A stretch of DNA of 64,000 nt from Chloroflexota bacterium (GTDB taxonomy: Bacteria > Chloroflexota > Dormibacteria > Dormibacterales > Dormibacteraceae): NCBI GenBank assembly GCA_005880915.1, contig VBIW01000034.1, positions 62,001-126,000 on the forward strand, written 5' to 3'. The notes below the pieces were generated by a model, which saw only the letters and a list, made by a program, of their open reading frames with translations, was not told the origin of the DNA and did no database searches. The translations under genes were made by a program, and so were the position numbers. Positions within the stretch are counted from its first letter, which is position 1. Each line of letters opens with the position of its first letter. Positions 35,466 to 52,680 of this stretch are shown in pieces.

Positions 35466-35490
35466 CGGCCGAACACCTGTTCGCTACAAT
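35462..35490 (+). promoter_or_regulatory. recA promoter with LexA (SOS) box
   Basis: -35 TTGACG (35462-35467), 17-base spacer, -10 TACAAT (35485-35490). The spacer holds the perfect LexA box CGAAC-ACCT-GTTCG (35470-35483). The -35 contains the stop codon of the upstream PgsA-CinA gene. Predicted transcript start is near 35497, giving a leader of about 80 bases with AGGAGG at 35560-35565. Confidence 0.88.
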
Positions 35491-47634: not shown

Positions 47635-48926
47635 TCACAACCAGGAGCCCGCGCGAGCGGGCATTTCTCGTTGGCATCCTGCTCCCAGGCACCACTCAGG
47701 AAGCCGTGCGCGAGCAGATGCTCGAGCTGACCGACCTCACCCGGACGGCCGGCGTCGAGGTCGTGGGCTCCGACGTGCAGCGGCGGTCCGACGTCGACCC
47801 GGCGCACTTCATCGGCATGGGCAAGGTCGAGGAGCTGCGCGACATGAAGCTCGAGGGCGAGTTCGACCTTGTGATCTGCAACGAGGACTTGAGCCCGCGC
47901 CAGCAGCGCAACCTCGAGCTGCAGGTCAAAGCTCGAGTCCTCGACCGGACCGAGATCATCCTCCAGATCTTCGCCCAGCATGCGCGTACTCATGAAGGAC
48001 GTTTGCAGGTGGAGGCGGCTCGACTCCATCACCTTCTGCCGCGCCTGATCGGCGCCTACGCCTACGACCGCCAGGTGGGCGGACGAAGAGGGGGAGTGGG
48101 TGCTCGCGGCGGTTTCGGCGAGCAGCAGATCGAGGTCGAGCGCCGCCGCATCCGGAAGCGGATGCGCGACCTCGATCGGGAGATCGAGCAGGTCCGCACC
48201 CAGCGCCACCAGCAGCGCACGGGCAGGCGCCGGGCCGAGCTGGAGACGGCAGCGATCGTCGGCTACACCAACGCGGGCAAGTCGACGCTGCTGAACGTGC
48301 TCACCGGGGCCGGAGTGAGGGCCGAGCAAAAGCTGTTTGCGACCCTCGACCCGACGACGCGCAAGCTCGAGCTGCCTGCGGGCCGGGAGCTGCTGCTCAC
48401 GGACACGGTGGGTTTCATCCAGAAGCTGCCCACCGACCTGGTCGCGGCCTTTCGGGCCACGCTCGAAGAGGTCACGGAGGCCGACCTGATCGTGCAGGTG
48501 TTGGACCTGAGCTCGCCGGCGGTCGAGGAGCAGGCGGAAACGGTCGAGCAGGTCCTGGGCGACCTGGGTGCCGCCGACAAGCCGCGGGTTGTCGCCCTGA
48601 ACAAGGTCGACCTGCTCGGGCCGGCCGGGCGGCGCCGTGCGATCAGCGCCCTGTCAGACCGCTACCCGGGCGCGGTGGCCGTCTCGGCCACAAACCGCAG
48701 CGGCCTGGCCCAGCTGCTGGAAGCGATCGATCGGGCGAGCCGGGGCGACGCGGTGGCACTGGACATCCTGGTGCCGTACGGACGCGAGGGCGTCCTCGCC
48801 GAGCTCCGCAAGATCGGCGGGGTGGAGCGCACCGAATACGTCGAGGGCGGCACCAGGGCCTGGGGCTGGGCGCCCCGCCAAGCGGCCCGCCGGTTTCAGA
48901 CGTATACGGCTAACGGAAGAGCCTGA
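47631..48926 (+). CDS. hflX: Ribosome-associated GTPase HflX
   Basis: GTPase that splits stalled 70S ribosomes. N-terminal HflX domain (FIGMGKVEELRD, LSPRQQRNLE, DRTEIILQIFAQHARTHEG), coiled helix, then the G domain with GYTNAGKSTLLN, DTVGFIQKLP and LNKVD. The conserved strand ERAFLVGILLPG lies upstream of GTG 47706. CTG 47631 overlaps the dapL stop (CTGA) with AGGA 10 bases upstream and yields 431 residues. The 3' end overlaps convergent lexA by 17 bases. Confidence 0.92.
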   Translation: MITTRSPRERAFLVGILLPGTTQEAVREQMLELTDLTRTAGVEVVGSDVQRRSDVDPAHFIGMGKVEELRDMKLEGEFDLVICNEDLSPRQQRNLELQVKARVLDRTEIILQIFAQHARTHEGRLQVEAARLHHLLPRLIGAYAYDRQVGGRRGGVGARGGFGEQQIEVERRRIRKRMRDLDREIEQVRTQRHQQRTGRRRAELETAAIVGYTNAGKSTLLNVLTGAGVRAEQKLFATLDPTTRKLELPAGRELLLTDTVGFIQKLPTDLVAAFRATLEEVTEADLIVQVLDLSSPAVEEQAETVEQVLGDLGAADKPRVVALNKVDLLGPAGRRRAISALSDRYPGAVAVSATNRSGLAQLLEAIDRASRGDAVALDILVPYGREGVLAELRKIGGVERTEYVEGGTRAWGWAPRQAARRFQTYTANGRA

Positions 48927-49536
48927 TCACTCCCCGGACGATGCCGACCAGGCTGACGCTGGTGGTGACGATCGGCTCGTAAGCCGGGTTTTCCGGGATC
49001 AGCTTGACGTGGCCGTTGCTCCGCTCGAACCGCTTGACGGTCGCGTCGCCGTCGACCAGCGCCACGACGATCGAGCCGTTGGTCGCCTCGTGCTGAGGCC
49101 GGACGAGCACCAGGTCGTTGTCCAGGATGCCGGCGTTGACCATGCTGTCGCCGCGCACCCGGAGCAGGAAGTAGCCTTCCTTGGCCAGCTCCGAAGAGAG
49201 AAGGACATGGTCCTCGATGTTCTGCTCTGCCAGGATCGGGCTCCCCGCCGCCACGTTGCCGACCACCGGGATGGACACGGCGCTCCGCCGCTTCTGGTCG
49301 AGCTCGGCGTCCTGGACGAGCTGGACGGTGCGCGACTTGCTCGGATCGCGCTTGATCAGGCCGCGCCGCTCGAGCTGGTTCAGGTGGTTGTGGACCGTCG
49401 AGCTCGAGCTGAGACCTACCGCCTCTCCGATCTCCCGCACGCTGGGCGGGTAGTTGCGACTCTTGCTCACGTCGCGGATGTAGTTGAGGATCCGGGTCTG
49501 CCGTTCGGTGAGTTCGTTGGTCAATTTCGCATTCAT
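48910..49536 (-). CDS. lexA: SOS repressor LexA
   Basis: 208-residue repressor. Winged HTH residues about 8-70 (SVREIGEAVGLSSSSTVHNHL), self-cleavage site Ala97-Gly98 in NVAAGSP, catalytic Ser131 (RGDSMVNAG) and Lys168 (DATVKRF). ATG at 49536. Perfect CGAAC-N4-GTTCG boxes at 35470, 49621 and 52064 fit the LexA of Gram-positive-type bacteria. Its own likely promoter (TTGCGC-17-TAGCAT on the minus strand, -10 at 49567-49572) is about 50 bases from the nearest box, so autoregulation is possible but not certain. Confidence 0.96.
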   Translation of the reverse strand: MNAKLTNELTERQTRILNYIRDVSKSRNYPPSVREIGEAVGLSSSSTVHNHLNQLERRGLIKRDPSKSRTVQLVQDAELDQKRRSAVSIPVVGNVAAGSPILAEQNIEDHVLLSSELAKEGYFLLRVRGDSMVNAGILDNDLVLVRPQHEATNGSIVVALVDGDATVKRFERSNGHVKLIPENPAYEPIVTTSVSLVGIVRGVIRLFR

Positions 49537-49607
49537 CTCCAGAGCGTGGTGGGGGACGTTGAAGCCATGCTAGCACTCCGGGTCTCCAAGCGCAAACCTT
49601 TGTTCGC

Positions 49608-49657
49608 TTGACTTGACTTCCGAACGCGCGTTCGCTATTCTCTCGAACGTATGTACG
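49608..49657 (+). promoter_or_regulatory. LysM gene promoter with two LexA boxes
   Basis: -35 TTGACT (49613-49618; a second TTGACT starts at 49608), 17-base spacer, -10 TATTCT (49636-49641). A perfect box CGAAC-GCGC-GTTCG occupies 49621-49634, and a one-mismatch box CGAAC-GTAT-GTACG lies at 49644-49657 across the start codon. Predicted transcript start near 49648 is three bases before ATG 49651, so the mRNA would be essentially leaderless. Confidence 0.85.
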
Positions 49658-49959
49658 CCGCCGGTCACGGGATCAAGTCTTGGCGGGCACCCCGTGCCGG
49701 CGGCCACCCCGCGCGCCAGGCGCTTGTCGTCGCCGGTGCCGTGGTCGCGATCAGCCTCGGCCTGGCGGTGGCGGCCCACGGCGGCACCACGCCGGCCTAC
49801 ACGACAGTCGTGGTGGAGCCGGGCGACACGCTGTGGGGCATCGCGGCCGAGCACTATCCGGCGGATGATGTGCGGGCCCGTGTCCAGGACATCGAACAAG
49901 CCAACGGCCTTCGCGGTCCGTCGATTGAGGTGGGGCAAAGCCTGCGCCTGCCGGGCTGA
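49651..49959 (+). CDS. LysM-domain membrane protein, YneA-like SOS cell-division inhibitor candidate
   Basis: 102 residues: a basic N-terminus, one transmembrane helix (about 24-43), and an extracytoplasmic LysM domain (VVEPGDTLWGIAAEHYP...IEVGQSLRLPG). The layout and the position divergent from lexA under LexA boxes match YneA/ChiA-type proteins of Firmicutes and Actinobacteria that delay division during DNA damage. The role is inferred from context; the domain call is firm. Confidence 0.82.
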   Translation: MYAAGHGIKSWRAPRAGGHPARQALVVAGAVVAISLGLAVAAHGGTTPAYTTVVVEPGDTLWGIAAEHYPADDVRARVQDIEQANGLRGPSIEVGQSLRLPG

Positions 49960-49974
49960 ACGGCGCGCCCGGTC

Positions 49975-50202
49975 GTGACTTCGCTGGTCCTCGTCACGCG
50001 GGAGGGCTGCCACCTCTGTGACCAGGCGCTCGGCCTGCTCCGCACGCTCGGCCACGAGCCGGAGCTGGAGGACGTGGACTCAGATGACCGGCTGCACGAC
50101 CTCTACGACTGGCGAGTGCCCGTGATCCTGGTCGACGGACGGGTGGTGGCGGAGGGGAGGATCAACCTGGAACAGCTCAGGAAGCAGCTAAGCGCTCTCT
50201 GA
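49975..50202 (+). CDS. Glutaredoxin-like thiol protein (DUF836 type)
   Basis: 75 residues with a thioredoxin fold: CHLC active site in LVTREGCHLCDQALGLL, a cis-Pro loop in DWRVPVILVDG, and a final helix. GTG start 16 bases after the LysM gene, so perhaps in the same transcript. Small glutaredoxin-like proteins of this type have no confirmed partner. Confidence 0.85.
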   Translation: MTSLVLVTREGCHLCDQALGLLRTLGHEPELEDVDSDDRLHDLYDWRVPVILVDGRVVAEGRINLEQLRKQLSAL

Positions 50203-50219
50203 GGCGCCGTGGGTGGAGT

Positions 50220-50410
50220 GCGGGGCGGCGTTCCTACGATCTCGGCGGCGTTTTGGGCCAGAAGGCCGAGCTCTGCATCCGGATAGACCTGGTTCAGCTC
50301 GTAGCGCTGGGTCGTGCCCCTCTCCGACCGTTTCAGCGTTCGAGCCACGTGCGGTAGCCATAGCGCCGCGCGACGAAAAGGCGCATCTCATCGAGGATCA
50401 CGCCCTGCAA
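50220..50410 (-). pseudogene. Decayed N-terminal part of an HNOB-like (heme NO-binding) protein
   Basis: From TTG 50410 the minus strand reads QGVILDEMRLFVARRYGYRTWLER then stops; a one-base shift resumes with TTQRYELNQVYPDAELGLL and AQNAAEIVG. The first block resembles the start of HNOB domains (M-K/Q-G-x-hydrophobic, then RYG..TW) and the second the following helix (YxxxEL...). The rest of the roughly 180-residue domain is missing, so it looks like a frameshifted, truncated remnant. The family assignment is by eye. Confidence 0.5.
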
Positions 50411-50575
50411 CGGGCCGAATGCTAAGCGCTGACTTAATGCGTGAGTGCGAGGCAACTCACGGTGGGGAAAGGAGGGTCAAAAGCCGCCCCGGGCCGCGCG
50501 ATGATCACGATAATGACTGGCATTCGGAAGGACCGCCGGGCCGTCCTCCCCCGAGGCCCGGCCGCGCCGCTCCTG

Positions 50576-50891
50576 GGTCCCAGGCGGGGAGATGGGGCTC
50601 TTGGGGGTCCCCGGACCCTCTGGGTGGGAGCGGCGCCCGGAGTCGGGAGGGTCGGAGGGTCGTCCCTATCCTTGTAGGTCCAACGTTTCTCGCTCCGGGA
50701 CCGTCCAACGAGTACGGATTGCCGGCGGCGGGGCTGGGGCCGGACCTGAGGGAGCTGCCCCGTCCGTGCCCGCCAGGGCAGCTCGTCCCGGGGACCCAGC
50801 TGGGCCGGGACGCCCCGGGGTGCCCAGCTGGGGGGGACCTTGCCTCAGGTCCGGCAAGACGTCCTCTCGTCTGCGCGTGGTGTCAAGGTCC
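50576..50891 (+). other. GC-rich segment dense in GGTCC/GGACC motifs
   Basis: I count ten GGWCC sites between 50576 and 50891 (50576, 50606, 50613, 50677, 50698, 50742, 50792, 50835, 50848, 50887), far more than chance at this GC content. Several can pair with each other. The wider stretch 50411-50718 holds no gene that I can support. Composition is poly-G/C rich and unlike the neighbours. Confidence 0.5.
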
Positions 50892-51132
50892 GGTTGATCG
50901 GACGGCCGTCGACCTTGTGCACGTCCTGGGATCGTCCTGGCACCGTCAGTGCTGGATCGTGTCCGCTCGAGGGCGTGAGCAGGCTCTACGATCGCAGCGT
51001 GAGCATGTGGGCAGGAAGCTGGCTCTAGCTGGCTACCTGGTCGCACAGGAGCAGTGGGGAGGGCTTCCAGCGGTCCAGCTCGGAGCTAACCTTGTGGCCC
51101 CCAACGGGGATCTTGCTGTCGATAATGACTGA
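50719..51132 (+). CDS. Doubtful hypothetical protein with CxxC-HxxxC motif
   Basis: 137 residues if started at TTG 50719. The N-terminal half is low-complexity Pro/Gly. The C-terminal half is protein-like: LVCAWCQGPVDRTAVDLVHV then SSWHRQCWIVSARGREQALR, giving a possible zinc site (Cys-x2-Cys and His-x2-Cys), followed by an amphipathic helix. The same frame is open upstream to 50314. No family recognised; it may be part of a mobile segment with the adjacent endonuclease gene. Confidence 0.35.
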   Translation: MPAAGLGPDLRELPRPCPPGQLVPGTQLGRDAPGCPAGGDLASGPARRPLVCAWCQGPVDRTAVDLVHVLGSSWHRQCWIVSARGREQALRSQREHVGRKLALAGYLVAQEQWGGLPAVQLGANLVAPNGDLAVDND

Positions 51133-51142
51133 TTCCGTAAGC

Positions 51143-51664
51143 TTAAGCTTCGGCTGAGCGCTCCTTGTGAATCTTCCGCGGAGAGTGCATCGGCTTCTTC
51201 ACGAACTCGTCGGTGCCGCGGTGGTTGAACTCGCGCTGCTTCCAATACAAAGCCTCTTGTTCGTCAAGCCAATCTTTCGGAAGGCGGTATGGACCGAGCG
51301 TGCGGTGGCTTCGGCGCGAGAGTTCAATCATTTCTAGGGCGTTGTCGCATTGCTGGACCTTGATTCGAAGGTAAGGACGCACTCCGCGTAGAAACGGGAT
51401 GGCGCTTTGGCCCGTCGGACAGCGCCAGTTCCAAGTCGGGCGCGCCTTCGTCCCGAGTGTTGCTCTTGAGCTGGCGACGATCCAGCCACCCCAGAGTCCG
51501 AGCATCCAGTCGAGCACGCCTCGATCACGATTAGACACGACCACCTGGACCGAGTAATAGAACCGGCCTCGTTTTGGTTCAAACGAACGCCCGATGGCGA
51601 TGCAGCCTTCGCCGTCGACGAATCCGGCCGCATAGGCCCAGTCAGTGTCGAGAATCTCCGCCAT
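51143..51664 (-). CDS. LAGLIDADG-family homing endonuclease
   Basis: 173 residues with one LAGLIDADG motif, AYAAGFVDGEGCIAI (residues about 10-24), including the acidic metal ligand and flanking helix, then beta strands FYYSVQVVVSNRDRGVL typical of the DNA-binding saddle. A single motif means it would act as a homodimer. It is free-standing: no intron or intein is visible around it. Its ATG is 15 bases after the stop of the 121-residue gene on the same strand, so both probably share the LexA-box promoter at 52057-52085. Confidence 0.82.
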   Translation of the reverse strand: MAEILDTDWAYAAGFVDGEGCIAIGRSFEPKRGRFYYSVQVVVSNRDRGVLDWMLGLWGGWIVASSRATLGTKARPTWNWRCPTGQSAIPFLRGVRPYLRIKVQQCDNALEMIELSRRSHRTLGPYRLPKDWLDEQEALYWKQREFNHRGTDEFVKKPMHSPRKIHKERSAEA

Positions 51665-51679
51665 CGGCCTCGACTCAGT

Positions 51680-52045
51680 TCAGGCCGAGCGCTGCAGCGC
51701 CGGCTCGGCGTCCAGGCCGCGCAGGAACACCTCGAGTGGCAGCGCCGCGGCTTCGAAGTCGCCTCGCAGCAGGTCCAGGTCGGCGCCGGCTTGCTGGAGG
51801 CCGGCGATCGCCAGCTCGATCATCCGCATGGATTCGGCCACGTAGCCTTCCAGCGGCGTCTCCAGAGGCCTGGCCAGGCTCTCCCGGTGCCAGGACACCC
51901 GCAGCTCGGCGGACAGGCCCAGGAGCCGGTCGATTACCGAGCCCGCGACGCCGCGCTCGAGTGGCTCGGAGGCGAGCCGGGTCCAGGACTCGCCAAAGGT
52001 CCGGATCAGCCGCCGCAGCTTTACCTGGGTCGCCAGAGTGCGCAT
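51680..52045 (-). CDS. Hypothetical helical protein under a LexA-box promoter
   Basis: 121 residues, mostly helical: LATQVKLRRLIRTFGESWTRL, an Arg-rich N-terminus, then LEGYVAESMRMIELAIAGLQ and an acidic Leu-rich C-terminus. No family recognised. The start ATG (52045) is about 5 bases from the predicted transcript start of the SOS-type promoter, making it nearly leaderless. The LAGLIDADG gene follows at once. Confidence 0.7.
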   Translation of the reverse strand: MRTLATQVKLRRLIRTFGESWTRLASEPLERGVAGSVIDRLLGLSAELRVSWHRESLARPLETPLEGYVAESMRMIELAIAGLQQAGADLDLLRGDFEAAALPLEVFLRGLDAEPALQRSA

Positions 52046-52056
52046 GTTCGATCGAG

Positions 52057-52085
52057 AGTATACCGAACGGGCGTTCGGACTGCAA
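52057..52085 (-). promoter_or_regulatory. SOS-type promoter with LexA box between divergent genes
   Basis: On the minus strand: -35 TTGCAG (52085-52080), 17-base spacer, -10 TATACT (52062-52057). The spacer holds the perfect LexA box CGAAC-GGGC-GTTCG (52064-52077). Same architecture as the recA and LysM promoters. It directs the 121-residue gene and the LAGLIDADG gene; bound LexA could also affect the MntP-like gene starting 34 bases to the right. Confidence 0.82.
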
Positions 52086-52110
52086 ATGGGGCCTGTTAAG
52101 CTCCAGGCCG

Positions 52111-52680
52111 GTGCGGCAGCTCCTGATCACGGCCGGGCTCCTCCTCCCCCTCGCCCTGGACACCTTTGCCCTGGCGGCCGCCCTCGGCATGGCCGGCCTC
52201 GAACGTCGCGACCGGATGCGGGTCGCGCTCGTCTTCACGGTCTTCGAGGCCGGGATGCCCATCCTCGGCCTTCTGGTCGGGCGCGTGGCAGGCAACTTGA
52301 TCGGAGCCTGGGCGGGCTACGGCGGGATCCTGTTCCTTTTGATCGCCGGCTTCCTGCTTCTCGGGCCAGGCCAAAAGCAAGACGACGAAGGGCAACGCTT
52401 GCGGTTGCTCGCCCACGCCCGCGGCCTGGCGATCATCGACCTCGGTCTGAGCATCAGCGTGGACGAGCTGACCGTCGGCCTGAGCGCCGGCCTGCTCGGC
52501 CTGTCCATCGCCGTCACCGTGATCTGGATCGCGGTCCAGGCATTCGCCGCGGCCCAGATTGGACTCCGGCTCGGCGCCAGGTTGAGCGAAGCGATCCGCG
52601 AACGATCCGAGCAGACGGCGGGTGTGGCTTTGATCCTGGTCGCGCTGGTGCTCCTGGTGTTGAAGCTGCTGAAGATCTAA
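52111..52680 (+). CDS. MntP-family membrane protein (putative Mn2+ efflux)
   Basis: 189 residues in two repeats of three helices. Conserved acidic residues lie in LALDTFALAAALGM (first repeat) and LGLSISVDELTVGLSAGL (second), corresponding to the paired Asp motifs of MntP manganese exporters. GTG start 52111. A LexA box lies in the upstream region. MntP family by topology and motifs; transport substrate not proven. Confidence 0.75.
   Translation: MRQLLITAGLLLPLALDTFALAAALGMAGLERRDRMRVALVFTVFEAGMPILGLLVGRVAGNLIGAWAGYGGILFLLIAGFLLLGPGQKQDDEGQRLRLLAHARGLAIIDLGLSISVDELTVGLSAGLLGLSIAVTVIWIAVQAFAAAQIGLRLGARLSEAIRERSEQTAGVALILVALVLLVLKLLKI

Follow-up and report, generated by a model that had tools for sequence, protein, structure and literature searches.

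The window analysed here is the whole 64,000-nucleotide stretch G000:C1:62001-126000, taken from a 4.13-Mb MAG (G000) that, like its relatives, represents uncultured soil Chloroflexi bacteria. Within it, a predicted LAGLIDADG homing endonuclease gene follows a small gene with a LexA-boxed promoter, and both are located close to lexA. The features of this locus, with the evidence for each in brackets, are as follows.

35470-35483, either strand: perfect LexA box within the promoter of recA, serving as reference for the operator (motif scan)
48910-49536, minus strand: lexA (Pfam LexA_DNA_bind and Peptidase_S24)
49621-49634, either strand: perfect LexA box in the promoter region from which lexA and LysM diverge (motif scan)
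49651-49959, plus strand: LysM-domain gene, divergent from lexA, in a position resembling that of yneA-type SOS genes (Pfam LysM, E 8e-12)
49981-50193, plus strand: matched stretch of a glutaredoxin-like gene, oriented towards the endonuclease gene (convergent), a flank common to empty alleles (locus comparison)
51120-51131, minus strand: CAGTCATTATCG motif just 3' of the endonuclease gene, right boundary of the replaced segment among relatives (locus comparisons)
51143-51664, minus strand: predicted LAGLIDADG (I-CreI-like) homing endonuclease gene, 173 residues (profile match, fold search, optional among relatives)
51680-52045, minus strand: 121-residue host gene with LexA-box promoter (conserved with the LexA box across the family; predicted four-helix bundle, model pLDDT 89)
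52057-52085, minus strand: promoter TTGCAG-17-TATACT of the 121-residue gene (promoter scan, sequence reading)
52064-52077, either strand: CGAACGCCCGTTCG, a perfect LexA box between the two promoter hexamers of the 121-residue gene (motif scan, relatives)

The minus-strand promoter of the 121-residue gene is composed of TTGCAG at 52085-52080, a 17-nt spacer (TCCGAACGCCCGTTCGG) and TATACT at 52062-52057, and the reading frame that it serves (52045-51680) is separated from the LAGLIDADG frame (51664-51143) by exactly 15 bases. The positions that the initial annotation had given for promoter, box, both frames and gap are all exact. A simple scan of 49400-52400 for sigma-70-like sites returned two promoter-like sites, that of the LysM gene at 49613 and that of the 121-residue gene, with none ahead of the endonuclease besides the LexA-boxed one; it found no terminator-like site between the two genes either, in agreement with the initial reading. 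lexA itself lies ~2.1 kb from the 121-residue gene. Pairs of lexA and a divergent LysM gene sharing a LexA box (yneA type) are known in SOS regulons, and in comparison with these the locus described here adds the 121-residue gene and an optional endonuclease.

Perfect CGAAC-N4-GTTCG boxes occur 15 times in the 4.13 Mb of G000, compared with 8 occurrences of the reversed control pattern, and precede recA (window 35470, promoter architecture TTGACG-box-TACAAT), the lexA/LysM pair (49621), an ImuA-like RecA-fold gene and a DUF222 gene. Because the motif also stands ahead of recA and lexA/LysM, it is taken as the LexA operator of this genome, and it agrees with tCGAAC-N4-GNNCGa, the consensus measured for LexA of Streptomyces (PMC9380542).

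The 121-residue gene was present in 31 of the 61 genomes searched, all from one family, and a profile search across the phylum added just three further, weak matches outside that family. Searches with the protein against Pfam, PHROG and PDB sequences were all negative, and no fold match reached significance. Among the relatives whose copy is readable from the first codon, 26 of 28 have a promoter spacer that contains a perfect LexA box, 14-20 nt upstream of the ATG, while the remaining two have a single mismatch in one case and no box in the other (G036). This conservation reaches down to ~34% protein identity, and most relatives with the boxed gene are without the endonuclease. From this pattern we infer that the box at 52064-52077 is an old operator of the 121-residue host gene, kept with or without the endonuclease, and the gene, with a LexA operator in its promoter conserved among relatives, is a predicted LexA-regulated SOS gene. 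A chance occurrence of the box was considered and rejected on the same 26 of 28 relatives. The protein family is family-restricted, LexA-boxed and predicted to be four-helix; its C-terminal end is highly conserved (EPALQRSA among core-group members). Synonymous conservation at the conserved 3' end of the gene, a candidate homing target, is only mildly raised (Mann-Whitney p 0.017).

The LAGLIDADG identity originally proposed for the downstream gene is borne out by a profile match to I-CreI/I-MsoI among PDB sequences at E 1e-17. The match to Pfam LAGLIDADG_1 is weak (E 0.05), and a fold search with a modest model (pLDDT 66) as the query gave an I-CreI-type match at E ~1e-4. The acidic motif residue E19 and K102 align with the I-CreI motif and lysine region, and both are kept in nearly all members. 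Together with the I-CreI-like body, the motif acid identifies the product as a probable I-CreI/I-MsoI-type single-motif LAGLIDADG protein, with cleavage activity predicted. No DUF222 or HNH match was found in it by Pfam scan, and it falls outside the 13E12/DUF222 family. I-CreI and I-MsoI are intron-encoded and found in organelles; the present endonuclease shares their sequence profile, predicted fold, motif acid and K region but, unlike them, is carried by a bacterial chromosome as a freestanding gene that closes a LexA-boxed unit. The endonucleases of PHROG 5046 (E 3e-22), from actinophages and Caulobacter phages, are freestanding too and ~30% identical over most of their length, but are phage-borne, and the one viral contig examined had no LexA link. 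An intron- or intein-borne element was rejected, as there was no intron family match and the gene sits after the stop codon of the 121-residue gene, whose reading frame is intact with and without the endonuclease downstream. The start codon of the endonuclease is not ATG in some relatives (CTG in G018, ambiguous in G052), making its translation uncertain there.

The distribution of the endonuclease is patchy. A sequence search detected it in 10 of 42 family genomes and a profile search added a remnant in G026; in the class as a whole, profile searching found a gene or remnant in 15 of 110 genomes, three of these broken. The damage ranges from a frameshift (G011) through deletion of most of the gene (G005) to remnants (G026, G038). 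In the core group the endonuclease begins 2-15 bases past the stop codon of the 121-residue gene. The initial annotation had suggested looking in the flanks of relatives for an empty site, and occupied and empty alleles are indeed paired in G002/G010, contigs C222/C66 and G034/G025; C222 and C66 share a MAG bin yet match at only 89% identity, and so probably derive from two related populations. The left edge of the difference between occupied and empty alleles is the stop codon of the 121-residue gene (in G034, a point past the next gene), and the right edge, immediately 3' of the endonuclease, is a motif that contains TTATC (CATTATC or a similar sequence). Identity between G002 and G010 is 98% on the left and on the right 81-86% over ~260 bp, then mostly 95-99%, as would be expected if diverged flanking DNA had entered along with the endonuclease. 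Presence and absence at a fixed site with intact flanks, combined with apparent horizontal spread, places the gene among the putative homing endonucleases.

Signs of exchange are also seen between G000 and G012, which are sisters in the lexA-hflX tree. The 121-residue gene has a dS of 0.21 between them, and the endonuclease a pS of 0.72, near saturation, with a pN of 0.27; identity falls inside the endonuclease past the motif helix and recovers at the glutaredoxin-like gene. A tree test that placed the two endonucleases in one clade gave p 0.08, short of rejection at 0.05, and as this is borderline the argument for replacement rests on the synonymous divergence and the identity along the flanks. 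In a second family (f3), the dS of the endonuclease exceeds that of the NUDIX gene, and its dN/dS is 0.04-0.12 where measurable. These values are as expected for an enzyme that is kept functional by purifying selection yet exchanged between lineages, as a homing endonuclease would be. Judged from these genome comparisons, the endonuclease is apparently an optional passenger of the locus, with signs of horizontal replacement.

Wherever the context is readable, the class copies adjoin lexA, are co-directional and follow a LexA box, and three arrangements occur. In the first (family f1), the 121-residue gene is followed by the endonuclease. In the second (f3), lexA is divergent from a LysM-NUDIX-endonuclease unit in which three boxes, two of them perfect and one nearly so, precede LysM; the endonuclease is carried by G048, G052, G054 and G056, a remnant persists in G038, and the other f3 loci read are empty. 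The third, in G034, has a promoter directly before the endonuclease, TTGGCT-box-TACACT, with its own perfect box (CGAACAGACGTTCG) ~20 bp ahead of the start, and the empty sister G025 is without both endonuclease and box. As the G034 genome holds only 9 perfect boxes in 2.8 Mb, we estimate that a box at most 40 bp from one named gene would be expected about once in 10,000. In G040 the tail of the LexA-boxed LysM-NUDIX unit is occupied instead by an Endonuclease VII gene (PF02945, E 1e-22), unrelated to the LAGLIDADG one. The Endonuclease VII gene (locus L160, ~1990-2610) is directly 3' of NUDIX, the slot used by the LAGLIDADG gene in other f3 genomes. Near distant LAGLIDADG relatives (G391, G262 and others in the phylum, two Myxococcales contigs and one viral contig), no perfect LexA box was present in the stretches examined, so that the LexA link seems, from the loci covered, to be particular to this class. 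When viral sequences were scanned a second time with the endonuclease profile, one distant relative only came up.

The initial annotation had placed the endonuclease apparently under SOS control through the box in the window. That box belongs to the 121-residue host gene, and what speaks for SOS control of the endonuclease, still a prediction, is its recurrence in three arrangements and the box of its own in G034. Homing endonucleases require a second allele and active recombination, and are harmful if constantly made; to our knowledge, little is known of how those of bacterial chromosomes are regulated. We consider it probable, at roughly 0.7, that a mobile, freestanding I-CreI-like endonuclease gene rides LexA-repressed units and would be SOS-expressed when RecA is high, with expression, LexA binding and cleavage all predicted from the DNA. 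The gene would have become established at the end of a LexA-repressed unit beside lexA and, to judge from the gap and the scan, would be co-transcribed from the host promoter of the 121-residue gene. With LexA bound, the nuclease would be kept low and silent in normal growth, limiting self-harm, while DNA damage, or SOS triggered by incoming single-stranded DNA, would cause it to be made together with RecA. It would then cut, presumably site-specifically, alleles of the locus that have no endonuclease gene, and recombinational repair would copy the gene in with some flanking DNA, resulting in SOS-timed homing. The comings and goings of the endonuclease at the ends of genes predicted to be damage-induced suggest that its spread may be timed to the repair state of the cell.

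A different and clearly less probable account is that a mobile homing endonuclease simply has its target near lexA, the LexA promoters being incidental and SOS timing bringing no benefit. The recurrent position of the gene next to lexA could stem from a conserved target at that place and not from selection for SOS control, and it fits such an account that one neighbourhood contains every class copy and that the first family has a conserved CATTATC-like motif at its right boundary. However, the insertion points of the two families, after the 121-residue gene and after NUDIX, differ and are non-homologous, the G034 copy has a LexA box missing from its empty sister, and the G040 tail is occupied by an unrelated nuclease gene.

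The initial annotation had also left open whether the enzyme is a mobile element or one adopted by the host into its damage response. Adoption might make it, for example, an SOS-induced nuclease for repair or for killing damaged cells. Low dN/dS and recurrent LexA control would suit adoption, but the gene is missing from most family members, broken in several and exchanged between lineages; because of these patchy, broken and replaced copies the mobile alternative stands, and domestication, rejected as the main reading, is very unlikely. Transcription of the endonuclease independently of the 121-residue gene, free of SOS control in this genome, is the least likely of all: no clear Shine-Dalgarno precedes the endonuclease and the promoter scan covered sigma-70-like sites only, but the LexA-boxed promoter is the sole promoter-like site ahead of it and in G034 such a promoter directly precedes it.

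SOS-timed homing, the preferred reading, can be extended to a broader proposition whose chances we put at about even. One bacterial homing endonuclease lineage would have specialised in LexA-repressed units, its activity coupled to SOS so that rival alleles are cut when recombination proteins are high or foreign DNA enters, and the tails of SOS units near lexA would be a niche entered independently by unrelated families (LAGLIDADG, Endonuclease VII).

Mobile DNA that moves on SOS induction is already known from integron integrases and IncC/SGI1 transfer (PMC3375312, PMC9927553), which are integrase- or conjugation-based, in contrast to the double-strand-break homing proposed here. The 13E12 repeat family of Mycobacterium tuberculosis likewise consists of mobile-element-like genes belonging to a LexA regulon (PMC5005354, which cites Davis et al. 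2002), but is not of the LAGLIDADG type. No paper coupling a LAGLIDADG endonuclease gene to LexA control was found in the literature searched, which is weak evidence of absence as most subscription journals were outside the search. With a LAGLIDADG gene recurring in three LexA-boxed arrangements, SOS-timed homing becomes open to direct test, and the locus has brought to light a conserved family of LexA-boxed genes, that of the 121-residue gene, adjoining lexA.

Several smaller observations concern the same genome and its relatives. The DUF222 gene of G000 (G000:C220, 255-1487) lies 14 bp from a perfect LexA box and is reminiscent of the LexA-regulated mycobacterial 13E12 family. Direct repeats of CAGTCATTATCG on the minus strand, at 51120-51131 and 50508-50519, flank a ~612-bp segment (window 50508-51131) that is absent from the sister G012 and contains a plus-strand ORF with a CxxC...HxxC pattern; it resembles a further insertion at this motif. 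A divergent membrane-protein gene (window 52104-52680) starts ~27 bp from the LexA box of the 121-residue gene, and may for this reason be co-regulated. The distance from the -10 hexamer to the ATG is very short in the promoters of the 121-residue gene (52040-52062), the LysM gene and the G034 endonuclease, so that their messages are probably leaderless or nearly so.
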